A stretch of DNA of 38,167 nt, taken from contig DJPR01000037.1 of NCBI GenBank assembly GCA_002438605.1, positions 1 through 38,167 of the forward strand, in the 5' to 3' direction. The stretch's first letter is position 1; each line of letters begins with the position of its first letter. This document shows, piece by piece, positions 1,679 through 37,257 of the stretch. The DNA is from Ruminococcus sp. UBA6407 (GTDB lineage Bacteria > Bacillota > Clostridia > Oscillospirales > Ruminococcaceae). The position numbers and the translations under genes are program-made. Under the pieces are notes generated by a model. It was not told where the DNA came from and did not search any database. It saw nothing but the letters and a program-made list of their open reading frames with translations.

Positions 1679-1726
1679 GGCAGCACCGAACAAAGCAAGT
1701 CAAAAGACCTTGTATAGTTCTGCCTT
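1679..1726. repeat. Dispersed hairpin repeat (yabP leader copy)
   Basis: GGCAGCACC followed by a CAAAG-type arm, a loop containing CAAGTCAAAAGA, then CCTTGT and CTGCC. The outer arms (GGCAG/CTGCC) pair and the inner arm is degenerate. It lies between the yabP start and its upstream promoter region. Confidence 0.6.
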
Positions 1727-1753
1727 TTTCGTTTCTATATTTATATTGTATTG

Positions 1754-1783
1754 ATTATAAAAATATTACCTCTGATTTGTCGT
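1754..1783 (-). promoter_or_regulatory. Possible promoter of the yabP operon
   Basis: On the minus strand a perfect -10 (TATAAT, plus-strand 1754-1759) has a weak -35 (ACGACA, 4 of 6) at 18-bp spacing. An alternative TTACAA-18-TAATAT lies at 1763-1792. A sigma-E promoter, as used in Bacillus, could not be recognised with confidence. Confidence 0.35.
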
Positions 1784-1812
1784 TTTTTGTAACTTTTTTT
1801 TTAGAAAACCTC

Positions 1813-1841
1813 TTGAAAATGCTGCTTGGGTATGATATAAT
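1813..1841 (+). promoter_or_regulatory. Sigma-A promoter of secG-rnr
   Basis: TTGAAA (1813-1818), 17-bp spacer, TATAAT (1836-1841). Transcription should begin near 1848, giving an ~80-nt AT-rich leader before the secG ribosome-binding site GGAGG (1916-1920). Confidence 0.8.
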
Positions 1842-1929
1842 AATATAAATGTTAATATGTGAATTATGTCATTTCACATAAATATAAATTTTTGTTCGCA
1901 TTTTTATTATTTTTTGGAGGCAGCTTAAA

Positions 1930-2190
1930 ATGAAAGAAACTTTACAGATCGTAGGAGGAGTTTTGCTCCTTATTTCATGTGTTTTAATTATTATCCTTTG
2001 TCTTATGCAGGATCAGAAACAACAGCAGAATATGACCTCTGCCATTACCGGAGGAAGCAACGATTCTTTCTACGGAAAGAATGAAGGCAGAACCAAGGAA
2101 GCTATCTTGAATAAGATTACAAGATTCCTTGCAATTGTTTTCTTTGTTGTTACGCTGGCTATAAATATTGTTCCAACGTTTATCGATTAA
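1930..2190 (+). CDS. secG: Preprotein translocase subunit SecG
   Basis: An 86-aa protein with two membrane helices (residues about 5-27 and 62-82). They are separated by the glycine-rich cytoplasmic loop typical of SecG, here I-T-G-G-S-N-D-S-F-Y-G-K-N with the conserved F-x-G-K. SecG joins SecYE and assists SecA-driven translocation. The ATG at 1930 follows GGAGG at good spacing. It is followed by rnr, the usual secG-rnr order of Gram-positives. A hairpin at 2199-2224 lies between them. Confidence 0.95.
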   Translation: MKETLQIVGGVLLLISCVLIIILCLMQDQKQQQNMTSAITGGSNDSFYGKNEGRTKEAILNKITRFLAIVFFVVTLAINIVPTFID

Positions 2191-2198
2191 ACCCCGCC

Positions 2199-2224
2199 TG
2201 CCCTATGACAAACGTCATAGGGCA
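2199..2224 (+). terminator. secG-rnr intergenic hairpin, partial terminator or processing site
   Basis: An 11-bp perfect stem (TGCCCTATGAC at 2199-2209, GTCATAGGGCA at 2214-2224) with a 4-nt loop is followed by TACTTTTTG. No separate promoter is visible for rnr, so this is probably a leaky terminator or an mRNA-stabilising hairpin that lowers rnr expression relative to secG. Confidence 0.6.
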
Positions 2225-2248
2225 TACTTTTTGAAAGGAGTTTTAAAT

Positions 2249-4423: not shown

Positions 4424-4443
4424 ACATCTGGGGGAAACGTAAA

Positions 4444-5301
4444 ATGAAGAAAAAAATAATCTTAATAATGACTCTTGCAATCTGCTCTGCATCATTCCTT
4501 GGGTGCAGTTTAAGTGTAAACGGAAATGAAATTCTTAAGGTTGAAAGCGGCGGAGCTTCAAATGCAAATACTGAAACTGCTGAAACAGGCAGTCAATCGG
4601 CAAATCAAACGACAGCTTCCGTAAACAGTGAGGTTCAGACGAATACCACGTCACAAACAGCTGCAGTCAGTGAAACAAAGCAGACATCTGAAACAGAAGC
4701 CGCTGCCAAGACATCAACAACAGAGGCAAAAACTGAGCCTTCATCAGATGCAAATACAATAGACGGTTCATTTACATTTGGCGATAACGGAGTTGATATA
4801 CTTTCACCTGATGAAGATGCAAATGATTCGCTTCTTATTGCAGCAGCCGACCGACTTTTTGATGTTGCATGCAAAATTGAATGGAAGTTTCATGTAGGCT
4901 GTCCTTATACACTTGACTATAATACGAGCATATCAGTCGGAGATTTCGGCTGGGAATATTATCTGATTACTGACAGCTCAATAAAGTCACTTTCAGATGT
5001 GGAAAATGACTATTATAAGGTTTTCAGCAGTTCATACGGCAATGACCTTTCTGAAATTTATACTGAAAAGGACGGAAAGGTTTATGCTCTTGCAGGTGAA
5101 AGAGGTGCAAGTATCTTTTATAAGGGTTCAAAGGTTACGGGTATAACATCAAGAACTGACAAGGAAATATTCTTTACGGTAGAAAATTATTATGATGTTG
5201 ACGAAGACGATCCATACCTTAAACCTGTGGAAAAGGACGAGTTTTCCATGGTTATTGACGGCAAGAAAGTAAGGGTGGGAAAATTCAGGCTGCCGTATTA
5301 A
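4444..5301 (+). CDS. Secreted lipoprotein of unknown function
   Basis: A 285-aa protein with a type II signal peptide: basic K-K-K, hydrophobic 5-18, and lipobox F-L-G-C with the lipidated Cys at residue 21. A low-complexity Thr/Ser/Gln/Glu-rich linker (about 35-100) follows. The C-terminal domain (about 105-285) has a conserved-looking core (D-F-G-W-E-Y-Y-L-I near 155-165) and many Asp/Tyr/Lys residues. The linker would hold the domain away from the membrane. It lies 20 bp after rnr and probably shares the secG-rnr transcript; GGGGGAAA precedes the ATG. I do not recognise the C-terminal domain and assign no function. Confidence 0.75.
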   Translation: MKKKIILIMTLAICSASFLGCSLSVNGNEILKVESGGASNANTETAETGSQSANQTTASVNSEVQTNTTSQTAAVSETKQTSETEAAAKTSTTEAKTEPSSDANTIDGSFTFGDNGVDILSPDEDANDSLLIAAADRLFDVACKIEWKFHVGCPYTLDYNTSISVGDFGWEYYLITDSSIKSLSDVENDYYKVFSSSYGNDLSEIYTEKDGKVYALAGERGASIFYKGSKVTGITSRTDKEIFFTVENYYDVDEDDPYLKPVEKDEFSMVIDGKKVRVGKFRLPY

Positions 5302-5478
5302 GACAATATCGTTATATAGATTTTAATGGATTGTTAAAAATAAAGGTAAAAATAATCTGCATATAAAGTCGAAAATATCCTATCATCTTGAATAGAATTG
5401 ATTTTAGAATAATTTATCAATATATGAACTTTTTGCGACATTGAGCAATATAGTTATAAAAAAACGCAACATTGTCAA
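5302..5478. other. AT-rich spacer after the lipoprotein gene
   Basis: 177 bp of very AT-rich DNA with no convincing ORF, no clear intrinsic terminator for the upstream operon and no recognised RNA. The region from 5479 on is treated separately as a promoter and leader. Confidence 0.5.
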
Positions 5479-5507
5479 TTGAAAATATATGTGAACTGCG
5501 TTATAAT
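5479..5507 (+). promoter_or_regulatory. Sigma-A promoter of the long leader/ncRNA before the CDF gene
   Basis: TTGAAA (5479-5484), exactly 17 bp, TATAAT (5502-5507). The predicted start is near 5514, about 505 nt upstream of the CDF start codon. Confidence 0.75.
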
Positions 5508-5513
5508 ACAATT

Positions 5514-5951: not shown

Positions 5952-6018
5952 TTTTTTGTGAATAACGCATAAATTATAGCAAATAGTGCGATAATCAACA
6001 TGAAAAGAGGTTTTTTAC

Positions 6019-7362: not shown

Positions 7363-8172
7363 ATGAAGTATTGTAAATTTTGCGGAACTCAATTAGATGA
7401 TGATGCAGTCTGCACCTGTGAGGAAGCACAGAAGGAATTAAATGAAAAGCAGACGGAAGCAAGGGCTTACGAAACTGATGATGATAAAAAAGCTGATTTG
7501 GCGGCAGGGGAAATGAAATTGCCGTCTGATATGGAGGTTCCGTCCAAAAATCAAAGTGACTTCAGCTTACTTGCCTGTGACATAAGAACATTTGCGTTTA
7601 TAGGCATAGGCTCTGTAATAGCAATTACTATTATTGTAATGATTATTTCTGCTATTGTTGGCGGTGGCTATAAAAAACCGCTGAATGACCTGAAAAAAGG
7701 TCTTAACAAAGGTGATTTTGATATATTTGCAGAGGCTTTTCCCGAAGATATAGCCGATGATATGGACGACAATGACGGTGATGAGGTATTTGATAACTGT
7801 ATTGACGCTCTTGAAGATGAGTACGGAAAAAATCTTAAATTCAAGTATAAGGTTGACTACAAGGAGAAAATTTCTGACAGAAAGCTTGAAAAGATTGAGG
7901 ATATTCAGGATATAAAGCTGAAAAAGGCTTATGAGGTTGACTTAGCAGTAAAGGTCAAGGGTAAAGAGGATAAGGACGATATTGAATTTACGGTTTTCGT
8001 GGGCAAGGTGAAGGACGAGGGCTGGAAGCTGGTATATATGGACGAAAATGATACCGATGAAATGTTTGAACTTCTTGAAAAATATGAAGAAAGCAGCTTG
8101 AGGGATAAGCTGAAAGATGATGACGTAAACGATGCTTTGGACGATTATTTCAGTGACTATGATTTTGAATAA
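7363..8172 (+). CDS. Zinc-ribbon membrane protein of unknown function
   Basis: A 269-aa protein. The N-terminus begins with a short zinc ribbon (C-K-F-C-G, then C-T-C at residues 4-19). A Lys/Glu/Asp-rich stretch, one membrane segment (about 80-105, ending in G-G-G-Y) and a strongly acidic C-terminal domain (about 110-269, many D-D/E-D pairs) follow. This layout is common in Gram-positive proteins with a zinc-ribbon head and an extracytoplasmic domain. The start is set at ATG 7363 because GGAGG (7352-7356) precedes it; the in-frame ATG at 7318 has no such site. No function can be assigned. It is transcribed from its own promoter and ends at a bidirectional terminator. Confidence 0.8.
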   Translation: MKYCKFCGTQLDDDAVCTCEEAQKELNEKQTEARAYETDDDKKADLAAGEMKLPSDMEVPSKNQSDFSLLACDIRTFAFIGIGSVIAITIIVMIISAIVGGGYKKPLNDLKKGLNKGDFDIFAEAFPEDIADDMDDNDGDEVFDNCIDALEDEYGKNLKFKYKVDYKEKISDRKLEKIEDIQDIKLKKAYEVDLAVKVKGKEDKDDIEFTVFVGKVKDEGWKLVYMDENDTDEMFELLEKYEESSLRDKLKDDDVNDALDDYFSDYDFE

Positions 8173-8174: not shown

Positions 8175-8210
8175 AAGGCAATACCGCATAAGCTTTATGT
8201 AGTGTTGTTT
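8175..8210. repeat. Degenerate dispersed hairpin repeat copy
   Basis: AAGGCAATACCGCATAA, then TTATGTAGTGTTGT. The inner CATAA/TTATG arms pair; the outer arms pair only partly. It lies just after the stop codon of the zinc-ribbon gene. Confidence 0.55.
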
Positions 8211-8215
8211 ATAAT

Positions 8216-8253
8216 AAAAAGCTTGAAATCCAATTCAGGATTTCAAGCTTTTT
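8216..8253. terminator. Bidirectional terminator between convergent genes
   Basis: A 16-bp perfect stem (AAAAAGCTTGAAATCC at 8216-8231, its complement at 8238-8253) with a 6-nt loop has A/T tails on both sides. It serves the zinc-ribbon gene (+) and the cohesin/dockerin gene (-). Confidence 0.9.
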
Positions 8254-8264
8254 GCTTTATTTTA

Positions 8265-9554
8265 TTACTTTAATTCGGAAAGTGACGGAATAACGTGAAG
8301 AATATGCTTTGCAATAGCAACAGCGTCCTGAGCGTTTAAACCATTGCTGCTTCCATGAACGTCTGCATTGGCAAAGCCCTGAGCTGACAATTTGTATTCA
8401 TTAGGATTAATAATGTAGCACTTAATTAATACAACATCTGCAATATCAACTGTTTTATCACAGTTAGCGTCACCGGCAAGTGACGGTTTAGGAAGTGTAG
8501 TTGCAGGTGTTGTGGTAGTAGTTGCAGGAATAGTGGTAGTAGTTGTTGTGGTGGTTGCAGGAATAGTGGTAGTAGTTGTTGTGGTGGTTGCAGGAACAGT
8601 GGTAGTTGTAGTGGTTGTGGTTGCAGGGAGAGTAGTCGTTGTAGTAGTTGTGGTTGCAGGGAGAGTAGTCGTTGTAGTAGTTGTGGTTGCAGGAATAGTG
8701 GTAGTTGTAGTGGTTGTGGTTTCAGGGAGAGTAGTTGTAGTAGTGGTTGTGGTTGCAGGAACAGTAGTAGTTGTAGTGGTTGTGGTTGCAGGAATAGTGG
8801 TAGTTGTAGTGGTTGTGGTTGCAGGAATAGTTGTCGTTGTAGTGGTTGTGGTTTCAGGAATAGTAGTAGTTGTAGTGGTTGTGGTTTCAGGGAGAGTAGT
8901 AGTTGTAGTAGTGGTTGTGGTTTCAGGGAGAGTGGTAGTTGTAGTGGTTGTGGTTTCAGGGAGAGTGGTAGTTGTAGTGGTTGTAGTAGCAGGAGTTGTA
9001 GTCGTTGTGGTACTTCTGTTGACTGTTATAGAGCCGTCTGTAATGGTAAGAGGCAGACTTCCTCCGAACAGCAGATTTTCCAGACTGCTTGCCATTGTAT
9101 AATCTCTGTCCCACTTTATTTGATATACTCCGTTATTGGCAGTATCCTTTACCTTGAAACCGAAGTAAATAACGGTATCGCCCTCTTTTGCCTCAAGCGG
9201 CATCATATTCGGGTCATTTGTTTCAATTGACCACCTCAAACAGCCCTCACTCTCATTTGTAACAACTAATCCGTAGCAGGAATCTGCCGGTACTTCAACA
9301 AGCTCCAGAGCAGAAGCGTCATAGCTGATACTGCCCTGCATTGCATAAACCTCTGTTCCGTCAGGGATTTGAGTTACAAAAACATCAACATACTGTACGC
9401 TATTCTTAGGGTTATAGTCGATGTTTGTCATTTCAAAGGTGAGCGTTTCACTTTCGGCTGATGTGCAGAAAGCAGGTACAGCAAGACAGCCTGAAACACC
9501 TGAAACTGCAATCAAGGCTGAAACAGCAAGGGATAAAAATTTTTGATTTTTCAT
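8265..9554 (-). CDS. Secreted cohesin-like / Thr-rich linker / dockerin protein
   Basis: A 429-aa secreted protein. A signal peptide (1 to about 32, cut near A-F-C-T-S-A) is followed by an Ig-like cohesin-type domain (about 36-178). A Thr-rich linker (181-358) comes next, then a C-terminal type I dockerin (359-429). The dockerin shows two calcium loops: [12 protein letters not shown] and [14 protein letters not shown]. The linker has 14 units of eight (once nine) Thr followed by [ILV]-P-[AE]. A cohesin and dockerin on one chain is an adaptor-scaffoldin layout, as in Ruminococcus cellulosomes and amylosomes: the dockerin docks on a scaffold and the cohesin receives another dockerin protein. 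The cohesin call is from fold-like pattern only; a carbohydrate-binding module is the main alternative. It has its own promoter and a long leader. Confidence 0.8.
8505..9005 (-). repeat. 33-bp in-frame tandem repeat encoding the Thr-Pro linker
   Basis: About 14 tandem 33-bp units encode T8-x-P-[A/E], with silent ACT/ACC/ACA variation and one unit longer by a codon. Such a minisatellite can expand or contract by slippage or recombination without a frameshift, changing linker length between strains. Confidence 0.9.
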
Positions 9555-9914: not shown

Positions 9915-9942
9915 TATAGCAATACAACAAGCTTTTAAGTCA

Positions 9943-9984
9943 ACACCGCACAAAGCACGTCAAAAGACTTTGTGCGGTATTGCT
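9943..9984. repeat. Dispersed hairpin repeat abutting the Na/Pi cotransporter stop codon
   Basis: ACCGCACAAAG (9945-9955) and CTTTGTGCGGT (9968-9978) form an 11-bp perfect stem around a CACGTCAAAAGA loop. The outer arm is AACA and TATTGC. The repeat ends exactly at the stop codon at 9985. Confidence 0.85.
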
Positions 9985-11736
9985 TTAATTAACAGCGTAT
10001 TTTTCACTGTATGCTTTGAGATTGTTTTCATATTCCTTGTTATGCAGGTCTTTTAGGTTTTGCAGGTAGCTGTGCATATCAAAGCTTTCATGTGCAATTT
10101 CTATAATGCATACGGCAATATTTGAACAATGGTCTGAAACTCTTTCAAGATTTGTAAGCAGGTCTGAAAGAACAAATCCCATTTCAATTGTACATTCCTT
10201 TTTTCTAAGACGTGTAACGTGCTGTTTTTTAATAAAGGACTGGAGATTGTCAACAACCTGTTCAAGCGGTTCAACCTTATATGCTTTTTCAAGGTCATTT
10301 TCAACGAATGCACCAAGTGCAAGAGAGAGTATCTCGCTTACTGCCGACATCATGGTGGTAATTTCGGATTTAGCCTGTTCGGAGAATTCCATTTTCTTTT
10401 CTTTTATTTCTTCTGCTGATTCAAGAATGTTGACAGCATGGTCACTTATTCGCTCAAAGTCGCCGATTATATGGAGCAGCTTTGAAACCTCGCGGCTGTC
10501 ATCATCTGTAAGTGTTTTTCCGCTGACTTTTACAAGATATGTGCCTAAAGCGTCCTCATATTTATCAGCAGCGTTTTCACCGTTTCTGATTTTTTTGGCA
10601 CGTTCTTCACTGAAGTCGAAAAGATTTGCAAGGGAATCCTTGAGAATGTCAACAGAAATTTGTGCCATGTCGCATGTAACATTTCGGCTTCTTTCAATGG
10701 CAACGGCAGGAGTTGAAAGGAGTCTTTCGTCAAGAAGTTCTTTTTTATCCTTTTCGGAAGCGTCCTCTTTGATAATTTTATATGAAAGCTTTTCAAGCTG
10801 TTTTGTAAACGGCATAAGAAGTCCGAGAGCAAGAAGCTTGAATACTGTATGGACTATGGCAATTCCGAGAGGTGTTGCCGCTTTTTCAACAAAGCTGAAC
10901 TGGAAAATGCTTTCAAGCGTATAATAAACGGTAAGCCATACAACAGCACTTATCAGGTTAAAGCTGAGGTGGATTACAGCGGCTCTTTTTGCATTTTTAG
11001 TTGCACCTACGGAAGAAATCATTGCACTTACACAAGTACCGATATTCTGTCCCATTACAATAGGAACAGCAGTAGAGTAAGTTACAGTACCCGTAAGAGT
11101 GAGAGCCTGCAAAATTCCGACAGACGCTGATGACGACTGTACAATGGCAGTAAATACAGTACCAACAATGAGTCCGAGAACAGGATTTGAAAACAGAAGA
11201 AGAATCTTGCTGAATTCCTCTGACTGTGCCAGCGGTTCAACAGCAGCCGACATTGTTTCCATACCGAACATTAAAATGGAAAAGCCTATGAGAATGAGTG
11301 CGGTATCTTTTTGCTTGCTGTTCTTTACAAACATTATGAAAATAATGCCGATAAATGCAAGCAGCGGAGTAAAGCTGCTTGGTTTAAGTATCTGAACCCA
11401 GAAGCTTTCACCCTCGATACCTGTAAGACTAAGCAGCCATGACGTAACGGATGTACCCAAGTTAGCACCCATAATAACACCGACAGCCTGATGAAGTGTC
11501 ATAATTCCTGAGTTTACAAAGCCTACGACCATAACCGTTGTTGCAGATGAGGATTGAATGATACCTGTGACAACAAGACCAAGCATAAAGCCTTTAAAGG
11601 TATTTGAAGTAAGGTTTTCAAGAATGGATTTCAGTTTAGTGCCTGCTTTGCGTTCAAGGGCATCGCCCATCAGGTTCATGCCGTAGAGGAAAAAAGCAAG
11701 ACCGCCTAACAGGGTAAACACGTCAAAAATACTCAT
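9985..11736 (-). CDS. Na/Pi cotransporter family protein with C-terminal PhoU-like domain
   Basis: A 583-aa protein. The membrane domain (residues about 1-310) has two inverted halves, each with the Na/Pi signature Q-S-S-S (Q-S-S-S-A-T-T near 61-67 and Q-S-S-S-A-S-V-G near 200-207). The cytoplasmic half (about 340-560) consists of PhoU-like helical bundles with E-x-x-x-D spacing. The family (NptA/YjbB type) couples sodium to phosphate movement, and bacterial members with PhoU tails can export phosphate. The ATG at 11736 follows AGGAGAAT on the minus strand. It is monocistronic here, with repeat hairpins on both sides. No pho regulon genes are nearby. Confidence 0.92.
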   Translation of the reverse strand: MSIFDVFTLLGGLAFFLYGMNLMGDALERKAGTKLKSILENLTSNTFKGFMLGLVVTGIIQSSSATTVMVVGFVNSGIMTLHQAVGVIMGANLGTSVTSWLLSLTGIEGESFWVQILKPSSFTPLLAFIGIIFIMFVKNSKQKDTALILIGFSILMFGMETMSAAVEPLAQSEEFSKILLLFSNPVLGLIVGTVFTAIVQSSSASVGILQALTLTGTVTYSTAVPIVMGQNIGTCVSAMISSVGATKNAKRAAVIHLSFNLISAVVWLTVYYTLESIFQFSFVEKAATPLGIAIVHTVFKLLALGLLMPFTKQLEKLSYKIIKEDASEKDKKELLDERLLSTPAVAIERSRNVTCDMAQISVDILKDSLANLFDFSEERAKKIRNGENAADKYEDALGTYLVKVSGKTLTDDDSREVSKLLHIIGDFERISDHAVNILESAEEIKEKKMEFSEQAKSEITTMMSAVSEILSLALGAFVENDLEKAYKVEPLEQVVDNLQSFIKKQHVTRLRKKECTIEMGFVLSDLLTNLERVSDHCSNIAVCIIEIAHESFDMHSYLQNLKDLHNKEYENNLKAYSEKYAVN

Positions 11737-11902: not shown

Positions 11903-12122
11903 AAGGCAACACCGCACAAAGATTGCATGTGCATTGTGTTTAAGGGAACGCTCTCTCTTGCAGAGCGTTCCCTCTTAAAAAACAGTCCACAGGACTGTTT
12001 TTTAATTCACCCTTTGCAGAGTGCCCTGCGGCTGTTTGTGGGACTCTGTCCCACACCCTGCAAGGGCTTTCAGCCCTTGACCTGACCAAAGGGTTAGCAA
12101 ACCCTTTGGAAACCCATTTTTT
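11903..12122. repeat. Multi-hairpin intergenic repeat cassette
   Basis: A half copy of the GGCAACACCGCACAAAG repeat (11903-11922) is followed by several hairpins. These are AGGGAACGCTCT/AGAGCGTTCCCT (11943-11973), AAAACAGTCC/GGACTGTTTT (11979-12001, then T), TGTGGGA/TCCCACA (about 12037-12055), AAGGGCT/AGCCCTT (12062-12079) and CCAAAGGGTT/AACCCTTTGG (12086-12109). The last 22 bp are identical to 2-23 of this window. No ORF is present. It lies between two minus-strand genes. Confidence 0.8.
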
Positions 12123-12144
12123 ATTTTTTAGTTTTCATAAACTT

Positions 12145-12180
12145 AAGGCAATACCGCATATTTTCTATGCGGCGTTACTT
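12145..12180. repeat. Dispersed hairpin repeat downstream of the aminotransferase gene
   Basis: AAGGCAATACCGCATA pairs with TATGCGGCGTTACTT: seven perfect inner pairs (12154-12160 with 12166-12172), then a mix of wobble and mismatch. It ends within 2 bp of the stop codon at 12182 and probably acts as its terminator. Confidence 0.75.
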
Positions 12181-12181
12181 A

Positions 12182-13465
12182 TTATTCCATTTCAGAAAGA
12201 AGCTTATCTGCACTTACCAGTTTAACACAAATTACAAAAAGCTCCATAGCCTTTTCAAGCTCCTCAACTGATGGATATGACGGAGCAATACGGATATTCT
12301 TATCATCAGGGTCTTTTCCATAAGGGAAAGTTGCTCCTGCATTTGTAAGTGTTACACCTGCCTCCTTGCAAAGCTGTACAATTTTCTTTGCACAGCCGTT
12401 CATGGCGTTGAATGATACAAAATATCCACCCTTTGGAGTAATCCATGACGCAATTTTTCCGCATGGAGTCAGTTCCTTTTCAAGAGTATCAGTTACAGCC
12501 TTAAAACGTGGTTCGAGAAGCTTTCTGTGCTTTTCCATATGTTTGAGAATATTTTCATATGTTCCAAAGTATTTTGCATGGCGTAGCTGATTGAGCTTAT
12601 CAAAGCTTATCGTACTGATTGCAAGTGATTCTTTAAGACTTTCAATATTCTCTCTGCTTGAACCAAGTACAGCAACACCTGCACCTGAAAAGGTGATTTT
12701 AGATGTTGAACCGTAAATATAAACGATATTATCGTTTCCTACTGCCTTTGCTTCTTCAAGAATATTGAGTATTCTGCTTGTATCATCTGTAAGATGATGA
12801 ACACAGTAAGCATTATCCCAAAAGATTCTGAAGTCCTTAGCCTTAGGCTTGAGTGATGCAAAACGCTTTACAACAGCGTCACTGTAACAGATTCCCTGTG
12901 GATTTGAATACTGAGGAACACACCATATTCCCTTGATGCTGTCATCATTTGAAACAAGTTCTTCAATCATGTCCATATCAGGGCCGTCCTGATGCATTGG
13001 AATATTAATCATTTCTATACCAAAAAATTCACATATTGCAAAATGACGGTCATATCCCGGAACAGGACAAAGGAATTTTACCTTGTCAAGCTTTCCCCAA
13101 GGTGTTTCACCGAGAATACCATGAGTGAACGCCGTCTGGATAGTCCAGAACATAATGTTAAGACTGGAGTTGCCGAAAACTATAATTTCGTCAGGATTTA
13201 CGCCTATCATAGGGGCAAAAAGCTTTTTAGCTTCGGGAATGCCGTCAAGCATGCCATAGTTTCTGCAATCCATACCATTTTCTGATTTATAATTACCGTC
13301 ATTGAGGATATTAAGCATATCCATGCTTAAATCAAGCTGTTCCGGTGACGGCTTGCCTCTTGACATATCAAGTTTAAGACCAAGTGCTTTAAAATCGTTG
13401 TATTTTGCTTCCGTTTCGTTTCTAAAGTTCAGAAGCTCCTCTTTGTTCATCTGAAACATATCCAT
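12182..13465 (-). CDS. PLP-dependent aminotransferase class I (aspartate-type, subgroup Ic-like)
   Basis: A 427-aa fold-type I aminotransferase. The N-terminus has the substrate-lid motif L-D-M-S-R-G-K-P. The cofactor pocket includes F-G-N-S-S-L, V-P-G-Y-D-R-H, the Asn and Pro of Q-Y-S-N-P-Q-G, and D-N-A-Y for the Asp that contacts the pyridine N. The Schiff-base Lys is in Y-G-S-T-S-K-I-T-F-S-G-A-G, and R-I-A-P-S-Y-P carries the carboxylate-binding Arg. The length and the Y-G-S-T-S-K motif fit the aspartate aminotransferase group described for some Actinobacteria and Firmicutes (PF12897-like). It probably interconverts aspartate/2-oxoglutarate with oxaloacetate/glutamate; the exact substrate is not certain. 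The ATG at 13465 follows AAAGGAGA. It stands alone between its own promoter and a repeat-type terminator. Confidence 0.85.
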   Translation of the reverse strand: MDMFQMNKEELLNFRNETEAKYNDFKALGLKLDMSRGKPSPEQLDLSMDMLNILNDGNYKSENGMDCRNYGMLDGIPEAKKLFAPMIGVNPDEIIVFGNSSLNIMFWTIQTAFTHGILGETPWGKLDKVKFLCPVPGYDRHFAICEFFGIEMINIPMHQDGPDMDMIEELVSNDDSIKGIWCVPQYSNPQGICYSDAVVKRFASLKPKAKDFRIFWDNAYCVHHLTDDTSRILNILEEAKAVGNDNIVYIYGSTSKITFSGAGVAVLGSSRENIESLKESLAISTISFDKLNQLRHAKYFGTYENILKHMEKHRKLLEPRFKAVTDTLEKELTPCGKIASWITPKGGYFVSFNAMNGCAKKIVQLCKEAGVTLTNAGATFPYGKDPDDKNIRIAPSYPSVEELEKAMELFVICVKLVSADKLLSEME

Positions 13466-13850: not shown

Positions 13851-15182
13851 ATGAAAGGTATTTTTTCAAGAATTTCAGCAATTGCATTAACTCTGTCCCT
13901 TTTTTCGGGAAACGGAGCTTTTTATGCTTGTGCTGATACAGTAATAAACGAGTATGGTACAATTGATTTGTCAGAGGAAACCATTGAACTGGATATGGAG
14001 GATTTTGACGCATTATATATGCCTGAAATTCCAAAAATCAATGTGTCAGATGCAGAAAACGGTTATTTTTACGGCGATTTTATTGACAAAAATAACAGGG
14101 CGGTTTATGATGCCCTTAAAGAATTTACGGACAAACCTTCCGAAGAAACTGTTACAGTCAAATTTCCGGAGGCAGTTAAGGTCAACCTTTCTGCACTTCC
14201 AAATTCAGAAAGCTATACGGAAGAAGACCAGGAAAATCTTTATAATACGCTGATGTCAAACTGCAAGGGCGGCAGAGATTGTATTTTGTTTGACTACCCC
14301 GAAGTATTTTGGCTTGACCCGAATTTAATGTCGATAAATCTGATTAACACGTCCTATTCGTATAACCGAATACAAAATTATTATACTTTAAAAATAGGCG
14401 GAATAATAATTAATCCAAAGCTTTGTGAATTTTGTGACAGCGTTGATTCTGCAAATGAAATGATGAAGCAATTAGATGAGGCTGTTGAGAACTTTGAAAT
14501 TCATGGAGATAAATTATACGACCGCTTGCTTGATGTCTATACTCAAATAGCTGAACGGACATATTACGATTCAAGTAAATCATATGCTCATACGGCAATT
14601 GGTGCACTTGTTAATGAAGGCGTAGTATGCGAAGGCTATTCCAAGGCACTGAAATTAATATGCGACCGTGAGAAAATTCCATGCGTCCTTGTTTTCGGCA
14701 ATTTTGACTCAACTGCAATGACTGCTCATATGTGGAACTATATTCAAATGGATGACGGAAAGTGGTATGCTGTTGATTTGACTTGGGACGATGTGGATGG
14801 TGAAAACGGCAAAGTTCTGAAAACAGAAAACTTTTTAAAAGGTTCATCAGCCTTTTATCAGAAGCATTCACCCGAAAAGGACTTTTTAGGAACCATTTTT
14901 ACATATCCCGATATTAGTGAAGAAGATTATTCATTCAGTCAGCAGACAACAACATCTTCAACCGTTTCTGTAACTGAACCAACCACTACAGTGACCACTG
15001 TGCCGCCTGTGATTGACGGTGACTTTAATCTTGACGGCAGGGTTGATATTGCAGATGCAATAATATGCTCAAGAACAGTATGCGGAGATGTCAGCGGTTA
15101 TAATTGTGATTTTGATAAGGACGGAATAATTGATATATTTGATTTTGTAATGTTCAGAAAATACCTTATTAATAAAATTTAA
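13851..15182 (+). CDS. Secreted transglutaminase-like protein with C-terminal dockerin
   Basis: A 443-aa secreted protein: signal peptide (1 to about 28, A-C-A-D region), an N-terminal domain (about 30-195), a transglutaminase-like core (about 215-320), a short Thr/Ser linker (about 365-385) and a dockerin (about 388-443). The catalytic triad is visible as Cys in V-V-C-E-G-Y-S, His in A-H-M-W-N and Asp in A-V-D-L-T-W-D-D. The dockerin has two calcium loops: D-F-N-L-D-G-R-V-D-I-A-D and D-F-D-K-D-G-I-I-D-I-F-D. The triad fits a cysteine protease, peptidoglycan amidase or cross-linking enzyme of the extended superfamily; the dockerin would attach it to a cohesin scaffold. The start is at ATG 13851 after AGGAGG; an in-frame ATG at 13836 lies upstream of the binding site and is unlikely. 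Confidence 0.88.
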   Translation: MKGIFSRISAIALTLSLFSGNGAFYACADTVINEYGTIDLSEETIELDMEDFDALYMPEIPKINVSDAENGYFYGDFIDKNNRAVYDALKEFTDKPSEETVTVKFPEAVKVNLSALPNSESYTEEDQENLYNTLMSNCKGGRDCILFDYPEVFWLDPNLMSINLINTSYSYNRIQNYYTLKIGGIIINPKLCEFCDSVDSANEMMKQLDEAVENFEIHGDKLYDRLLDVYTQIAERTYYDSSKSYAHTAIGALVNEGVVCEGYSKALKLICDREKIPCVLVFGNFDSTAMTAHMWNYIQMDDGKWYAVDLTWDDVDGENGKVLKTENFLKGSSAFYQKHSPEKDFLGTIFTYPDISEEDYSFSQQTTTSSTVSVTEPTTTVTTVPPVIDGDFNLDGRVDIADAIICSRTVCGDVSGYNCDFDKDGIIDIFDFVMFRKYLINKI

Positions 15183-15192: not shown

Positions 15193-15225
15193 AAGGCAGC
15201 ACACTTCAAGTGAAGGTGTTGCCTT
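15193..15225. repeat. Dispersed hairpin repeat acting as bidirectional terminator
   Basis: AAGGCAGCACACTTCA pairs with TGAAGGTGTTGCCTT, with A-rich and T-rich flanks. It lies between the convergent transglutaminase and CPBP genes. The inner arm (CTTCA/TGAAG) differs from other copies on both sides, so pairing is kept. Confidence 0.8.
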
Positions 15226-18123: not shown

Positions 18124-18792
18124 ATGATAGAATTTAATAACGAATGGGACGAACTTCTGAAAGATGAATTTAAAAAGCCGTATTATCTTGAATTAAGAAA
18201 AAAACTAATTTATGAATACAGAACACAGCAGATTTTCCCCGGAATGTATGATATATTTAACGCCCTTAAATACACCTCATACAGTGATATAAAGGCTGTT
18301 ATTATCGGGCAGGACCCATATCATGGTGTCGGACAGGCTCATGGACTCAGCTTTTCTGTAAAAAAAGGAGTTGCACCTCCGCCATCGCTTGTCAATATCT
18401 TCAAGGAGATAAAGTCAGATTTAGGAATTGACAACATGGGCAAGCATGGTGAATTGACCGAATGGGCAAAAAATGGAGTTCTCCTGCTGAATTCAGTTCT
18501 TACAGTAAGAGCAAATCAGGCAAGAAGTCATCGCAATTTAGGCTGGGAAGAATTTACCGATAATGTAATACGTCTTATAAATCTTAGAGAAAAGCCTGTA
18601 GTATTCATGCTCTGGGGTGCAGACGCAAAGGCAAAGGAAAAACTGATTACAAATCCAAATCACCTGATATTAAAAGCAGCTCATCCGAGTCCGCTTTCAG
18701 CTTTTAACGGATTTTTCGGATGCAGGCACTTTTCAAAGGCAAATGAATTTTTAAAGTCAAAGGGAATAGAAGAAATTGATTGGTCTATTTAA
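18124..18792 (+). CDS. ung: Uracil-DNA glycosylase, family 1
   Basis: A 222-aa enzyme that removes uracil from DNA to start base excision repair. The water-activating loop G-Q-D-P-Y-H-G is at residues 62-68, with Asp 64 as the catalytic base. A uracil-binding loop L-L-L-N-S-V-L-T follows near 120. The leucine-intercalation loop H-P-S-P-L-S carries the catalytic His near 187. Length equals the family norm and no residue is missing. The ATG at 18124 follows AAAGGAG. It converges on rpoC across a strong hairpin and a repeat copy. Confidence 0.97.
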   Translation: MIEFNNEWDELLKDEFKKPYYLELRKKLIYEYRTQQIFPGMYDIFNALKYTSYSDIKAVIIGQDPYHGVGQAHGLSFSVKKGVAPPPSLVNIFKEIKSDLGIDNMGKHGELTEWAKNGVLLLNSVLTVRANQARSHRNLGWEEFTDNVIRLINLREKPVVFMLWGADAKAKEKLITNPNHLILKAAHPSPLSAFNGFFGCRHFSKANEFLKSKGIEEIDWSI

Positions 18793-18796
18793 TGAA

Positions 18797-18832
18797 CCAC
18801 CGCACAAAAATCATCAAAAGACTTTGTGCGGC
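18797..18832. repeat. Dispersed hairpin repeat after ung
   Basis: CCGCACAAA (18800-18808) pairs with TTTGTGCGG (18823-18831), loop AATCATCAAAAGAC. It begins 5 bp after the ung stop codon. Confidence 0.8.
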
Positions 18833-18849
18833 GATTTATTAATAAATGC

Positions 18850-26680: not shown

Positions 26681-26700
26681 TAAAGGCAGCATCGCACAAA
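26681..26700. repeat. Half copy of the dispersed hairpin repeat in the rpoB leader
   Basis: AAGGCAGCATCGCACAAAG matches one arm of the family almost exactly; the second arm is missing. It lies between the rpoB promoter and ribosome-binding site. Confidence 0.6.
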
Positions 26701-26718
26701 GAAATTTTTAACAAGCTC

Positions 26719-26880: not shown

Positions 26881-26919
26881 GAATTAATCAGCAACAGTAT
26901 ATTGAGAACACCTCTAAAA

Positions 26920-26963
26920 ACAACACCTTACAAAGCATGTTTAAAGACTTTGTAAGGTGTTGT
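26920..26963 (-). terminator. prfB terminator formed by a dispersed hairpin repeat copy
   Basis: A 16-bp perfect stem (ACAACACCTTACAAAG at 26920-26935, its complement at 26948-26963) surrounds a CATGTTTAAAGA loop, with TTTTTA after it on the minus strand. Compared with the common arm CCGCACAAAG, this copy has CCTTACAAAG, and the opposite arm carries the matching changes. Confidence 0.9.
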
Positions 26964-26972
26964 CCGAATTAT

Positions 26973-28091
26973 TTATTTCTTTAAATCACCATGAGAAAGT
27001 GATTTGAGATATGCATTGATAAATCCGTCAATATCACCGTCCATAACCGCCTGAATATTGCCGTTTTCAAAGCCTGTTCTATGGTCTTTTACAAGAGTAT
27101 ACGGCATAAAGACGTATGAACGGATTTGTGAACCCCATGCAATTTCACGCTGAACGCCCTTAATATCCGAAACCTTTTCCAAATGTTCACGTTCCTTTAT
27201 CTCAACGAGCTTTGAACGGAGCATTTTCATGGCGTAATCTTTATTCTGGAACTGGCTCCGCTGTGTCTGGCATGATACAACGATCCCTGTAGGAATATGT
27301 GTAATACGAATGGCAGATGATGTTTTATTGACCTTCTGTCCACCTGCACCGCTTGAACGGTAAGCATCAATGTGAAGGTCCTCAGGACGAATGTCAATTT
27401 CTATTGAATCGTCAATTTCAGGCATAACCTCAAGTGCGGCAAAAGATGTATGACGGCGTCCTGAAGCGTCAAACGGAGAAATTCTTACAAGACGGTGAAC
27501 GCCAACTTCTGATTTGAGATAACCATATGCATTTTCCCCCTCAACCAGAATTGACGCTGACTTCAAGCCGGCATCATCACCGTCAAGATAATCCAGTAAT
27601 GTAACCTTGAAATTATGGCTTTCTGCCCATTTATTATACATTCTGTACAGCATTTCCGCCCAGTCCTGAGCTTCTGTACCGCCTGCACCCGCATGGAATG
27701 TAAGAATAGCGTTGCTTTTATCGTATTCTCCCGTAAGAAGTGTGGAAAGCTTTTTGTCTTCAAGTTTTTTCTTGAACGATGCAATTTCACGATTTATTTC
27801 ATCAATTGATGACTCATCATCTTCCTCAATTGAAAGCTCAATCAGTGCAATAATATCTTCAAGGGTATTATTCAGCTTGTTATAATCATTGATTTTATTT
27901 TCAAGTCCTTTTGACTTTTGCAGTATCTTCTGAGAATTCTCCAAGTCGTCCCAAAATCCGTCTTTACTTATTTCCTCACGAAGTTCTGCAAGCTCCTCCT
28001 CTGCTTTTTTTAAATTCAATACATCGGAAAGCTCCTTCATCTCACTTCGGTAATTTACCATTTCTACTCTAAGGTCATCAAGTATAACCAT
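26973..28091 (-). CDS. prfB: Peptide chain release factor 2
   Basis: A 372-aa class I release factor for UGA and UAA stops. The tripeptide anticodon S-P-F is in R-I-S-P-F-D-A-S-G-R, and the peptidyl-transferase motif G-G-Q is in S-S-G-A-G-G-Q-K-V-N-K-T. A helical N-terminal domain precedes them. The reading frame is continuous through the region where many prfB genes use a +1 programmed frameshift at an in-frame UGA. The corresponding codons here read K-E-L-S-D-V-L, so autoregulation by frameshifting is absent. The ATG at 28091 follows AAAGGAA. It has its own promoter and a repeat-type terminator. Confidence 0.96.
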   Translation of the reverse strand: MVILDDLRVEMVNYRSEMKELSDVLNLKKAEEELAELREEISKDGFWDDLENSQKILQKSKGLENKINDYNKLNNTLEDIIALIELSIEEDDESSIDEINREIASFKKKLEDKKLSTLLTGEYDKSNAILTFHAGAGGTEAQDWAEMLYRMYNKWAESHNFKVTLLDYLDGDDAGLKSASILVEGENAYGYLKSEVGVHRLVRISPFDASGRRHTSFAALEVMPEIDDSIEIDIRPEDLHIDAYRSSGAGGQKVNKTSSAIRITHIPTGIVVSCQTQRSQFQNKDYAMKMLRSKLVEIKEREHLEKVSDIKGVQREIAWGSQIRSYVFMPYTLVKDHRTGFENGNIQAVMDGDIDGFINAYLKSLSHGDLKK

Positions 28092-28137: not shown

Positions 28138-28160
28138 AAAGGCAGCACTGCACAAAGAAA
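28138..28160. repeat. Half copy of the dispersed hairpin repeat in the prfB leader
   Basis: AAAAGGCAGCACTGCACAAAG is one arm of the family. On the minus strand it starts at about +3 of the predicted prfB transcript. The opposite arm is absent. Confidence 0.6.
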
Positions 28161-28168
28161 TTATTTCA

Positions 28169-28288: not shown

Positions 28289-28344
28289 AAAGGCAACACC
28301 AAATCAATAAGCAAGTCAAAAAAACTTATTCATCAGTATAAAGG
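28289..28344. repeat. Dispersed hairpin repeat in the EAL gene leader
   Basis: AAAGGCAACACC, then AATAAG (near 28306-28311), a loop CAAGTCAAAAAAA, then CTTATT (28325-28330). The inner arm replaces CACAAAG/CTTTGTG with AATAAG/CTTATT, keeping the pairing and the loop. Its 3' end merges with the ribosome-binding site. Confidence 0.65.
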
Positions 28345-31415: not shown

Positions 31416-31424
31416 ATAAAGAAG

Positions 31425-31472
31425 ACAGCACCGCACAAAGCACATTTCAACACTTTGCACGGTACTGACTGA
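31425..31472. repeat. Dispersed hairpin repeat in the ychF leader
   Basis: ACAGCACCGCACAAAG, loop CACATTTCAACA, then CTTTGCACGGTACTG. It lies just after the ychF promoter. Pairing is imperfect (three mismatches). Confidence 0.75.
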
Positions 31473-31492: not shown

Positions 31493-32587
31493 ATGAAACT
31501 TGGAATGGTTGGACTTCCGAATGTCGGAAAAAGCACACTTTTTAACGCACTTACAAATGCAGGAGCAGAATCTGCAAACTATCCCTTTTGTACAATTGAA
31601 AAAAATGTAGGTATAGTTTCTGTCCCTGATGAAAGACTTGACGCTCTTGCAAAAATGTATGAGCCTGATAAGTTCACTCCTGCAACTCTTGAATTTGTTG
31701 ATATCGCAGGACTCGTTAAAGGTGCTTCAAAGGGTGAGGGACTTGGAAATAAGTTTCTTGCGGATATAAGAGAGGTTGACGCTATCGTTCATGTTGTCCG
31801 CTGCTTTGAAAACATTGACGTTGTTCATGTAGACGGTGAAATTAATCCTGCCCGTGATATTGAAACAATAAATCTTGAGCTTATTTTTTCTGATATTGAG
31901 ATTATAGAGCGTCAGATTGAAAGAACAAAGAAAGCTGCAAAAGGTGATAAAAAGCTGCTTGTAAACGTTGAATTTCTTGAAAGACTTAAAGAACATCTTG
32001 AAAACGGCAAGTCTGCAAGAAGCTTTGACTTTACTGATGAGGAAGCTGAAATAATCAGACAGACTCCTCTTTTATCGGCAAAACCTGTCATATATGCAGC
32101 TAACTTATGTGAAGATGACTTTAAAAATAATATTGAAAATAACAAGAACTTCCTTACAGTAAAAGCTATTGCAGACGAAGAACACTCTGCTGTTCTTCCA
32201 ATATGTGCTCAGATAGAGGCTGAAATTTCAGACATGGAGCCTGAGGACAAGGAAATGTTCCTCAATGATCTGGGACTTGAGGTTTCGGGACTTAACAGAA
32301 TTATAAAAGAGGGATATAAACTCCTCGGACTTATTTCATATCTTACAGCAGGAAAGCCTGAAGTTCGTGCATGGACAATAAAAAAAGGTACGAAAGCACC
32401 TCAGGCAGCAGGAAAAATCCACACAGACTTTGAAAAAGGCTTTATTCGTGCTGAGGTTATATCATTTGATGACCTTATGGCATGCGGTTCAATGGCTGCT
32501 GCAAAAGAAAAAGGTCTTGTTCGTCTTGAGGGCAAGGAATATGTAATGCAGGACGGAGATATTGTATTATTCAGATTTAATGTCTGA
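31493..32587 (+). CDS. ychF: Redox-regulated ATPase YchF (Obg-family)
   Basis: A 364-aa universally conserved P-loop protein that prefers ATP over GTP and binds ribosomes. G1 is G-L-P-N-V-G-K-S (residues about 6-13), G3 is D-I-A-G-L-V-K-G-A-S-K-G, and the G4 position is N-L-C-E-D rather than N-K-x-D, which explains the ATP preference known for the family. A helical insertion and a C-terminal TGS domain (about 280-364) ending D-I-V-L-F-R-F-N-V follow. Its length is as expected. The ATG at 31493 follows AGAGAGG. It has its own promoter and terminator, and no operon partner. Confidence 0.96.
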   Translation: MKLGMVGLPNVGKSTLFNALTNAGAESANYPFCTIEKNVGIVSVPDERLDALAKMYEPDKFTPATLEFVDIAGLVKGASKGEGLGNKFLADIREVDAIVHVVRCFENIDVVHVDGEINPARDIETINLELIFSDIEIIERQIERTKKAAKGDKKLLVNVEFLERLKEHLENGKSARSFDFTDEEAEIIRQTPLLSAKPVIYAANLCEDDFKNNIENNKNFLTVKAIADEEHSAVLPICAQIEAEISDMEPEDKEMFLNDLGLEVSGLNRIIKEGYKLLGLISYLTAGKPEVRAWTIKKGTKAPQAAGKIHTDFEKGFIRAEVISFDDLMACGSMAAAKEKGLVRLEGKEYVMQDGDIVLFRFNV

Positions 32588-32597: not shown

Positions 32598-32638
32598 CGG
32601 GTTTCCAAAGGGTTGATAACCATTTGGAAACCCGCTTT
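32598..32638 (+). terminator. ychF terminator made from the CCCTTTGG repeat
   Basis: GGGTTTCCAAAGGGTT pairs with AACCATTTGGAAACCC with a single mismatch, a short GAT loop, and then GCTTTTT. Its left arm is the reverse complement of 2-17 and 12100-12115, so a repeat family supplies the terminator. Confidence 0.85.
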
Positions 32639-32686
32639 TTAAGATTCCCATAAATGTTAAGGAAAAATAAATAATTTCTAATTTCC

Positions 32687-32715: not shown

Positions 32716-32722
32716 ATAAATT

Positions 32723-32746: not shown

Positions 32747-32768
32747 TTTTTTGAAAAGGGGTGAATAA

Positions 32769-33386: not shown

Positions 33387-33401
33387 AAAAGGAGAAGATA
33401 T

Positions 33402-36400: not shown

Positions 36401-36767
36401 TATTTCAATGCTTGGATTTGTAATGCTCTGCGGTATTATAGTAAACAACGGTATTGTGCTTGTTGACTACATCAATCAGCTTCGTATTGACGGCGTTGAA
36501 AAGAAAAAAGCAATTGTTGAGGCAGGAGCGACAAGAATGCGTCCAATCCTCATGACATCAATCACAACGGTTCTCGGACTTATTGTAATGGCTCTTGGAC
36601 AGGACAGCGGTTCAGCAATGATGCAGCCTATTGCTATCGTTTGTATCGGCGGTCTTGTTTACGCTACTGCTCTTACACTTTTCGTTATCCCTTGTCTGTA
36701 TGACATGATGAACAAAAAGGAAATGAAAAAAATTGATGAAAAAGATCTTGAAATAAGCAGCAAATAA
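33402..36767 (+). CDS. RND-family efflux permease (HAE1/SwrC-like)
   Basis: A 1121-aa proton-driven exporter with two repeated halves. Each has one N-terminal membrane helix (the first at about 10-28), a large outside porter domain, and a block of membrane helices. Helix 4 carries the proton-relay pair in A-V-G-M-L-V-D-N-S-V-V, and G-A-I-T-S-S-T-L-T-T and C-G-I-I-V-N-N-G-I-V-L are typical. It is most like Gram-positive SwrC-type members, which lack an outer-membrane partner. Residues about 190-290 hold a helical, acidic insertion in the first porter domain. No membrane-fusion protein gene is adjacent. Substrates may be drugs, bile acids or surfactants; none can be read from sequence. The ATG at 33402 follows AAAGGAGAAG. 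Confidence 0.93.
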   Translation: MSKFSVKKPLTVFMAVIAVIVLGIVSYTRMTPDLMPNMNMPYVMIMTSYPGATPEKVETSISKPMEQAMATLDGIKGVYSTSSENYSMVTLEFEEDTNMDSTTVDILQKINQIEGYWDDMVGTPYILKINPNMMPVMVAAVEIDGMTNTELSELLDKELLSKLESVNGVANINESGNVQEKISVMLSQDKIDKLYSRIYGEIDKNFAEPMEAIENGYAALQPAYDAFEKSISDIKSNAEMTEEMKNAAINQITVSAEYTQVMDGWKQLQDSEAQLKDSMEQAHSAVDLSQLLSMDTLSGILTAQDFSMPAGYVTQDGVKCLVSVGDEIKSIEEIQNLVLVDLDMEGIEPVKVSDVADVFMMDNSAEIYAKINGNDGVVLSFSKQSSYATADVADNISEKFDELSDEYEGLNFTVLMSQGDYIDIIINSITSSLLWGALFAVIILFVFLKDIRPTFITLCSIPVSVIFAVVLMYFSGISLNMMSLSGLAIAVGMLVDNSVVVIENIYRLKSKGESAVKAAVSGAVQVGGAITSSTLTTICVFLPIVFVDGLSRELFTDMALTLGYALVASLIIALTLVPALASGLLKKAQPKEDKFFKKFNSGYKKAVTWSLSHKPVVLILAVALLAGSCFAAIRKGFVFMPDMDMPQLTATLEMEQGSTLEETKDVSNQAVSRICDVEGVVTVGAMTGGNNMMGMGEASDTLVSFYIILDEDTDREFSDIADEINEKCSDLDCEFEVTNAMDLSAYMGGSGLSIQIFGNNLDDLQNTAKDVADIIGGVEGTLNVSNGLEENDPALRITVDKEKAMLKGLTVAQVFSDISANLTTEKTAVDITDANGTYDVVVSSDSSEELTPDFIRNYKLTVTGKDGSASEVALSDIAEINETETLSSISRENQKRYITVTSEVDDDHNVTLVTKDAKDALKDYEVPNGITIEFGGENESIADSMSDMVLMMLLGIILVYMIMVAQFQSLKSPFIVMFTIPLAFTGGLLGLLIAGLEISVISMLGFVMLCGIIVNNGIVLVDYINQLRIDGVEKKKAIVEAGATRMRPILMTSITTVLGLIVMALGQDSGSAMMQPIAIVCIGGLVYATALTLFVIPCLYDMMNKKEMKKIDEKDLEISSK

Positions 36768-36776
36768 TTGTATAAT
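36748..36776 (+). promoter_or_regulatory. Sigma-A promoter of the DtxR/MntR-like gene
   Basis: TTGAAA (36748-36753), 17-bp spacer, TATAAT (36771-36776). The -35 overlaps the last codons of the RND gene, so this regulator can be expressed independently. Confidence 0.7.
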
Positions 36777-36809
36777 AAAGATGTAAATTGTTTAAGGAGG
36801 TCGGACATC

Positions 36810-37202
36810 ATGAGATATTGTGCAGGACAGATTAAATACCTTACAGCCATTAAAGAGCTGAAGGATAAGGGCGGCAGGATTCGCTGTGTGAATATATCAA
36901 ACTTATTGGGGGTATCACGTCCGAGCGTGAGCAAAATGCTCAGATGTCTGGCTGATTCAGGTCTTGTTTATGAAGACTTCTGCAACAGTGTCGAGCTTAC
37001 TGACAAGGGCAGGGCTGTTGTGGAGGAAATCTATTCGGAATACAACGAAATTTATATTTTCTTTAAACGCATTCTCCGCTTACCCGACTCTGAGGCAAAG
37101 GAACAGACATTGCTGTTTATAAATACCTTTCCGAAGTCAACGGGAGAACGTTTGAGTGAGGTCGTAAAGAAAAGTCTTAACAAGAAAAATAACAAGGAAT
37201 AA
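36810..37202 (+). CDS. DtxR/MntR-family metal-dependent regulator
   Basis: A 130-aa protein with an N-terminal winged helix (residues about 5-60: Y-L-T-A-I-K-E-L, then L-G-V-S-R-P-S-V-S-K-M-L-R-C-L) and a short dimerisation domain (about 65-125). This is the MntR-size form without the SH3 domain of DtxR. In MntR the metal is held by residues including Asp8, Glu11, His77, Glu99, Glu102 and His103. The usual His pair is not obvious here, so its metal is uncertain. The start is at ATG 36810 after AAGGAGG (36794-36800); the open frame extends upstream to a TTG at 36768, which overlaps the -10 box. The only metal exporter in the window is 30 kb away. Confidence 0.8.
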   Translation: MRYCAGQIKYLTAIKELKDKGGRIRCVNISNLLGVSRPSVSKMLRCLADSGLVYEDFCNSVELTDKGRAVVEEIYSEYNEIYIFFKRILRLPDSEAKEQTLLFINTFPKSTGERLSEVVKKSLNKKNNKE

Positions 37203-37207
37203 AACCA

Positions 37208-37257
37208 AAGGCAGTATTGTGCAAAGTACGTTTGACGACTTTGTGTGATACTGCCTT
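37208..37257 (+). terminator. Terminator formed by a dispersed hairpin repeat copy
   Basis: AAGGCAGTATTGTGCAAAG (37208-37226) pairs with CTTTGTGTGATACTGCCTT (37239-37257) over all 19 positions if G-U is allowed. Four positions are G-U wobbles, showing that pairing is kept at RNA level. TTAAAATTTTT follows. It lies 5 bp after the MntR-like stop codon. Confidence 0.9.

Follow-up and report, generated by a model that had tools for sequence, protein, structure and literature searches.

Scattered intergenic hairpins in a Ruminococcus contig: probably a MITE family mobilized by an IS5-family transposase and plausibly co-opted at gene 3′ ends

Why should one small hairpin recur between so many genes of a single contig? 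The question is raised by contig DJPR01000037.1 of Ruminococcus sp. UBA6407 (a 2.14 Mb genome in 46 contigs), whose whole 38,167 nucleotides we refer to as the window. An earlier examination of its letters, hereafter the sequence-only reading, described ten fuller hairpin copies and several half copies at the borders of most transcription units and proposed a mobile terminator or RNA-processing element. Our analysis indicates that the scattered hairpins are probably a family of miniature inverted-repeat transposable elements (MITEs) of Ruminococcus that is moved in trans by an IS5-family transposase and has plausibly been co-opted at 3′ ends. The kind of element is already known. As far as could be seen from the portions available of the CC-licensed PubMed Central (PMC) literature naming Ruminococcus together with MITE or repeat terms, no earlier description of this MITE family was found, nor any of its IS5 link in Ruminococcus or of its deletion-derived size classes, and these three points appear to be what is new.

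Family, fold and spread

A direct-repeat search of the window recovered the family unprompted, and fold and arm scans then placed the copies. The repeat is real and far above chance, as had been claimed: AGGCARCACCGCACAAAG with up to two mismatches occurs at 258 sites in the window's genome, versus none for a reversed-pattern control. Similarly, within 777,460 sampled bases of this genome (the window plus 37 other stretches, 88% coding) 118 elements carried the true arms and one carried reversed arms, while a genome-wide covariance search gave at least 147 matches, with 150 of 2068 first-look candidates scored and some places counted on both strands. The terminal inverted repeats, GGCARCACCGCACAAAG, are 17 bp long and enclose no coding capacity, as expected of a MITE. 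Full-length copies are mostly 160-200 nt and typically about 176 nt, too small to encode a transposase, and form one long imperfect palindrome that folds end to end (-78.2 kcal/mol for a full copy, z -10.2). Among 111 facing arm pairs (134 loci, overlaps not removed), 43 measured 176 nt, seven 177 nt and 20 only 50 nt. Enlarged full-length MITEs of 233-341 nt were also seen (L122, 2894-3126; L130, 5644-5934; L134, 6347-6686; L147, 4512-4852), and the extra sequence in L122 and L147 resembles another palindromic element nested within.

At least one AGGCARCACCGCACAAAG-type site was present in 35 of 60 genomes searched, the window's own among them. High site numbers were confined to the 36 genomes of the same genus, where they were patchy, ranging from 0 to 252 per relative, and four of the 36 held at least 100 end sites of the MITE. 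Outside the genus, seven matches in 24 genomes were at the control level (six). An exact 20-base scan placed R. flavefaciens FD-1 and YRD2003, R. albus AR67, R. callidus ATCC 27760 and many metagenome-assembled genomes (MAGs) among the matches listed (80 of 117), along with MAGs assigned to Ruminococcaceae, Oscillospiraceae, Clostridiales and Clostridia and one Alistipes MAG. The short MITE-like hairpin in an Alistipes-labelled record (L140, 2483-2540) could reflect either transfer or a mixed or mislabelled MAG.

The flanks of these elements bear the mark of transposition. Exact, AT-rich 4-bp target duplications lie next to the GG..CC termini of 74 of the 93 full-length copies and 32 of the 47 short ones (106 of 140), versus shuffled means of 30.0 and 10.2, a rate valid for well-kept copies because they were found via their conserved ends. 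TTAA makes up 59 of the 106. There were no 5-bp matches and zero to two at other offsets; a 2-bp duplication had been entertained as a reading of the flanks, and the offset scan showed the 4-bp duplication instead. Because such duplications also flank the short copies, these likewise stem from insertions. In the window a perfect duplication is kept in only three of nine measured copies, as would be expected if these are older. Insertion would be tolerated mainly between genes; elements inside called genes numbered 2 of 118 in the window's genome and 1 of 38 and 4 of 40 in two other sampled genomes, G020 and G018.

Helper transposase and palindrome upkeep

For a source of movement, 60 genomes of the genus were searched with DDE_Tnp_1, and 30 loci were examined for MITE-like ends with up to three mismatches. 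One of the 30, L247, has such ends on both sides of its transposase, 1126 bp apart and with TAAA duplicated. This element, about 1.13 kb long (1040-2165 of its locus), holds the transposase in two pieces, the copy being broken by a stop, and these pieces match IS5 (NCBIfam NF033581, E 1.9e-71, over the cut-off; Pfam PF01609, 1.5e-31). A search at E 1e-15 found relatives of the L247 type in 8 of 125 genomes of the genus, and 13 of 16 loci of these IS5-type relatives have an end within four mismatches, though some loci overlap and the end in L287 is poor. Both ends and the same flanking 4 bp are kept in L273 (which is the L247 copy itself), L274 and L279; the latter two are flanked by TTAA on both sides, L274 retaining an open frame of 329 amino acids and L279 being an insertion sequence (IS) with an internal deletion and intact ends. 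The autonomous elements whose ends are shared with the MITE are those of L247, L274, L275 and L279. IS5-group elements produce 4-bp YTAR duplications, in agreement with the duplications seen here. Judged by ends and flanks, an IS5-family transposase apparently moves the MITE in trans. The suggestion of a mobile repeat is thus borne out by terminal repeats, target duplications and IS5-type elements with matching ends; the transposase that the sequence-only reading proposed looking for elsewhere in the genome was present in genus relatives and absent from the window's genome at E 1e-15.

Several other candidate helpers were set aside. In the MITE-rich genome G013, 14 stretches were inspected for an autonomous element with MITE ends; ends with up to two mismatches were partnered at 45-172 nt except in L230 and L234, and no transposase was found beside these two unpartnered, truncated ends. 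Two ends 1.26 kb apart in R. flavefaciens FD-1 (L123) proved to be one full MITE and a partial copy, with no recognisable transposase among the open frames. An IS701-type helper with DDE_5 (PF13546) occurred in 2 of 60 genus genomes, and the two loci examined lacked such an end at up to four mismatches. A 16-base match in L277 was not counted as an IS end because it belongs to a neighbouring MITE, a 163-nt copy at 728-890, with some 135 nt between it and the end of an IS5-type remnant.

The same evidence bears on whether the hairpins are REP-type (repetitive extragenic palindrome) elements moved by a RAYT (Y1) transposase, whose small, high-copy intergenic palindromes they recall. To our knowledge RAYT movement leaves no duplication, and the exact 4-bp duplications together with a DDE-type IS bearing the same ends make this explanation extremely improbable, although no search aimed at RAYT genes was made.

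The sequence-only reading had taken paired changes in the arms as evidence for selection on RNA structure and against a mobile repeat. Covariation is indeed strong in full-length copies. Of the 93, 67 were usable (few N, 160-182 nt) and 46 remained after removing near-identical ones; RNAalifold missed the inner helices in the gapped 46-row alignment, and 29 copies of exactly 176 nt were used, 17 of the 46 being excluded for length. In these 29, 96.7% of cells are paired, and both sides have changed in 84 cells of 19 pairs, versus 19.6 for shuffled and no more than 11 for slid versions. By parsimony, 30 changes are double Watson-Crick swaps on one branch, with 32 two-base events versus 6 in the slid control; as related sequences may exceed shuffles without any structure, the slid versions and the parsimony control weigh more. 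Twenty short copies of the window's genome showed 17 double-change cells versus 9.1 when shuffled, a level reached in 1 of 500 shuffles. The departures remaining in full copies comprise 12 G-U, 26 A-C and 22 other mismatches. Because RNA selection should tolerate G-U above A-C and no such preference is present, upkeep of the palindrome at the DNA level is the likelier source of full-length covariation, and the argument against a mobile repeat is not supported, the element being one. Double changes may arise largely in DNA, by template switching between the arms or through constraint on the palindrome itself. In the alignment of the 29 copies, internal loops at columns 44-45/145-146 and 66-67/121-122 have TC on both sides, (near-)conserved despite being unpaired; they may contact a protein or keep the palindrome from being cleaved.

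A structured-RNA family (riboswitch, small RNA or processing signal) under RNA selection, rather than a transposon product, would explain the long conserved fold and the covariation. We regard it as very unlikely: exact 4-bp duplications and IS5-type ends rule out an RNA family as a full account, the window contains no Rfam match at the gathering score, the G-U preference is missing, and the hairpin was not found at the one orthologous place checked.

The sizes of the short forms point to their origin. Deletion products were predicted from direct repeats of at least 6 bp inside full-length copies of three sampled genomes, and nine of 72 possible sizes (37, 50, 55, 67, 73, 75, 79, 95 and 99 nt) were each predicted by at least three full copies. 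A predicted size was found in 107 of 143 short copies from these genomes, 50 nt in 70 and 37 nt in 32, and these two sizes trace to CTTTGT and TTGTGCGG, or their complements. Since predicted sizes are so numerous, the match by itself is suggestive, and what makes it strong is chiefly that both of the most frequent sizes were predicted; 22 of 27 observed sizes lie outside the nine, mostly single copies or sizes one or two bases off 37 or 50. On this sequence evidence it is strongly indicated that internal deletion between direct repeats, CTTTGT and TTGTGCGG, gave rise to the 50- and 37-nt hairpins. Slippage across the palindrome would yield such small hairpins.

Placement beside stop codons

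The short copies are not placed at random relative to gene ends, the outcome that had been named as telling against the original proposal. In same-direction gaps of the window's genome, 26 of 53 short copies are found no more than 15 nt from a stop, versus 11.5% expected from weighted target sites (p 1.6e-11); the same test gave 4 of 8 in G020 (p 0.004) and 3 of 8 in G018 (p 0.044), the expectation being 9.6-11.5% across the three genomes. Insertion at a TAA stop is favoured because a duplicated TTAA leaves the stop intact, an effect that the target-site null already covers. Convergent gaps are also richer in short copies per base (13 of 62 in 2,560 of 36,332 intergenic bases of the first sample).

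Genes with a hairpin just behind the stop seldom have another terminator. A separate canonical terminator was found in 3 of 29 gaps of such genes in the three genomes, versus 179 of 479 gaps without an element and 33 of 78 gaps whose element lies elsewhere, counting gaps with at least 60 nt of element-free sequence; stratification gives an expectation of 10.8 versus the 3 observed (p 0.0008), as scored with a home-made gene caller and terminator finder. The claim that copies border transcription units therefore stands for 3′ ends, through the stop-codon enrichment and the fewer separate terminators there.

A wobble signature accompanies this placement. Counted on the transcribed strand, G-U cells outnumber A-C cells by 60 to 27 in stop-proximal copies; cells within one element are not independent, and by element the count is 21 versus 8 (21 of 29 informative; p 0.024), a modest excess. 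Elsewhere G-U was not in excess: the two were balanced in other same-direction copies (42 and 42) and in divergent gaps (61 and 60), and tilted towards A-C in convergent gaps (23 and 32, p 0.28), which are ambiguous because both strands may be transcribed. Excluding common polymorphic positions in turn left the result unchanged. Modest as it is, the G-U preference expected of RNA-level selection thus appears only in stop-adjacent copies.

Taken together, the most likely function is a weak or factor-dependent 3′-end hairpin, or one that protects mRNA, behind stops. Small hairpins there would be kept for making up or protecting the 3′ terminus of the mRNA upstream, and separate terminators at these stops would then be lost or displaced; alternatively, the same pattern would arise if elements had inserted into older terminators that were thereby lost. 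Several observations weigh against this interpretation or its parts. No U-tract enrichment was detected behind stop-proximal copies (4.35 versus 3.95 T in 10 nt, p 0.36), and none of 27 stop-proximal hairpins reached a canonical terminator score, the criterion being a GC-rich hairpin plus U-tract. Few of the full-length copies lie close to stops (4 of 11, 1 of 7 and 3 of 10 in the three genomes). A C-to-T mutation bias on the coding strand could be the source of the G-U excess, to which the interdependence of cells must be added, as must the home-made tools behind the terminator counts. Among predicted deletion sizes, 67, 73, 79 and 99 nt were not seen in the three samples, and 73 nt appeared once in the arm-pair set. 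Apart from the missing helper, the window's genome holds only two stop-ridden PF01609 fragments, no PF01609 match occurs in MITE-rich G013 and G030, and N occurs in 13 of the 19 full copies from the window's genome.

Could the hairpins be purely selfish MITE debris, with stop-codon copies marking the least harmful insertion spots and serving no function? This is a real possibility, somewhat short of an even chance. The patchy numbers in the genus fit it, as do the missing U-tract enrichment and the failure to find the hairpin at 31422 ahead of the counterparts of gene 31493 in 29 relatives' loci examined, and the same tolerance argument is made in the available part of a paper on pneumococcal repeats (PMC3049150). 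However, the scarcity of separate terminators and the strand-specific excess of G-U are not predicted by tolerance alone. A genuine mobile intrinsic terminator, whose hairpin and T-rich flank halt transcription both ways, seems doubtful. Hairpins do sit at stops whose genes seldom have another terminator, and some run into TTTTT, for example 26917 on the minus strand, but none of the 27 fits the canonical definition, and the sequence behind 3′ copies is comparable in T content to that behind the others. In addition, divergent gaps, in which strong termination ought to be harmful, contain 31 of the 99 short copies sampled from the window's genome. Of the proposed mobile terminator, mobility is upheld, whereas the U-tract of a canonical terminator is missing, which leaves terminator activity putative.

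Co-option of the MITE at 3′ ends can be extended to a more speculative and rather unlikely scheme, in which one transposon family supplied a large share of the transcript 3′ ends in some Ruminococcus genomes. Slippage would keep making 50- and 37-nt hairpins, those on TTAA/TAA stops would replace U-tract terminators with U-tract-poor, factor-needing ones, and template switching would renew the palindrome, so that the fold stays while the sequence drifts.

Copies in the window and known counterparts

Eight of the ten copies named by the sequence-only reading are good, six of exactly 50 nt and two of exactly 37 nt, all without assigned strand, and their intergenic placement holds apart from 2-nt overlaps with stop codons at 9937 and 18791. 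The 50-nt hairpin at 1677..1726, flanked by duplicated TTTT, sits in a divergent gap at a distance of 18 nt from a called start. A 37-nt copy at 8175..8211 follows the stop of a plus-strand gene ending at 8172 by 2 nt, and a second hairpin with a T-run stands after it at about 8215-8255. At 9937..9986 (50 nt) TTAA is duplicated and its right copy overlaps the stop codon of the minus-strand gene 9985-11736, while the 37-nt hairpin at 12145..12181 comes directly behind the stop of the minus-strand gene 12182-13465. The 50-nt copy at 18791..18840, in a convergent gap, also has a TTAA duplication, the left one overlapping the stop of the plus-strand gene 18124-18792. At 26917..26966 (50 nt), 6 nt behind the stop of the minus-strand gene 26973-28091, the reported block swap of the arms to CCTTAC/GTAAGG is present and is a double change of the type seen in full copies; no separate canonical terminator was found in the remaining 304 nt of the gap. 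The 50-nt hairpin at 31422..31471 lies 21 nt ahead of the called start of the plus-strand gene 31493-32587. That at 37208..37257 (50 nt), 5 nt behind the stop of the plus-strand gene 36810-37202, has the four G-U pairs and no mismatch that had been described, among its outer 14 pairs.

The two other named copies fared less well. A 33-nt hairpin at 15193..15225, between convergent genes, is a possible shorter member and a marginal match to the covariance model (E 0.037). The degenerate copy at 28290..28330, tested by fold and covariance model, is not convincing as a hairpin: it is absent from the best fold, was not listed by the model at E 0.05, and only the inner AATAAG/CTTATT can pair. Half copies, as reported, are present. 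One with a single good arm at 11903..11940 is a weak covariance-model match, which some scans joined to a poor second arm and counted as a pair of 150 nt; the direct-repeat search gave left arms only at 26683..26705 and 28139..28161; and 38110..38167 is the right end of a full-length MITE on the minus strand, cut off by the contig end.

Other repeats of the window were noted in passing. A second small repeat, AACCCTTTGGAAACCCATTTTT, occurs at 2-23, 12089-12123 and 32607-32641; at 12089 pairing of AAGGGTT with AACCCTT is possible ahead of a T-run, and this may be a further repeated unit resembling a terminator. Fourteen overlapping matches at 8432-9061, spaced by 33 nt (one by 36), form a coding tandem repeat in the minus-strand gene 8265-9554. 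Stretches 8435-8479 and 15013-15057 match in inverted orientation and read like what we take to be dockerin motifs, presumably of two dockerin proteins.

Recognizing the family has practical consequences. Contigs break inside the MITE, the window itself ending in one, and naming it would aid intergenic annotation in a genus studied for fibre breakdown. The MITE could also mislead RNA-family searches, because its covariation comes without the RNA wobble signature. Finally, copies of many ages, two fixed sizes and a non-stop comparison set offer a system for testing how a transposon becomes a 3′-end signal.

Among known systems, IS5-family elements (NCBIfam NF033581) have 14-15 end bases identical to those of the MITE and likewise duplicate a 4-bp AT-rich target; the MITE, unlike them, has no gene and shows no likeness past the ends by blastn-short (E 0.05). 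The other comparisons draw on the parts of the cited papers available to us. In behaviour the nearest is SPRITE of S. pneumoniae, likewise a small repeat hairpin enriched near gene 3′ ends, for which the authors suggest terminator co-option (PMC3049150). SPRITE ends in AAAA/TTTT and contains a tract rich in U (about 48%), its target duplication could not be established, and no likeness to IS ends was found (PMC3049150), whereas the Ruminococcus MITE has clear target duplications, IS5-type ends and no U-tract enrichment. RUP and BOX of the same species, whose ends resemble IS630-Spn1 and ISSpn2, respectively, are like it in target duplications, ends resembling a host IS and tight folding (PMC3049150), but differ from the Ruminococcus family with its IS5-type ends, 4-bp duplications and, in the window's genome, dominant 50- and 37-nt deletion forms. 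MITEAba12 of Acinetobacter is similar in its near-fixed length (90% are 113 bp) and in sharing ends with an IS, there a named one; it differs in duplicating 9 bp, in its number (90 copies in some 30 genomes) and in folding weakly by prediction, and the accessible text does not mention a 3′-end bias (PMC6382973). That MITEs might form terminators is called conceivable in what we saw of a 2024 review (PMC10969869).

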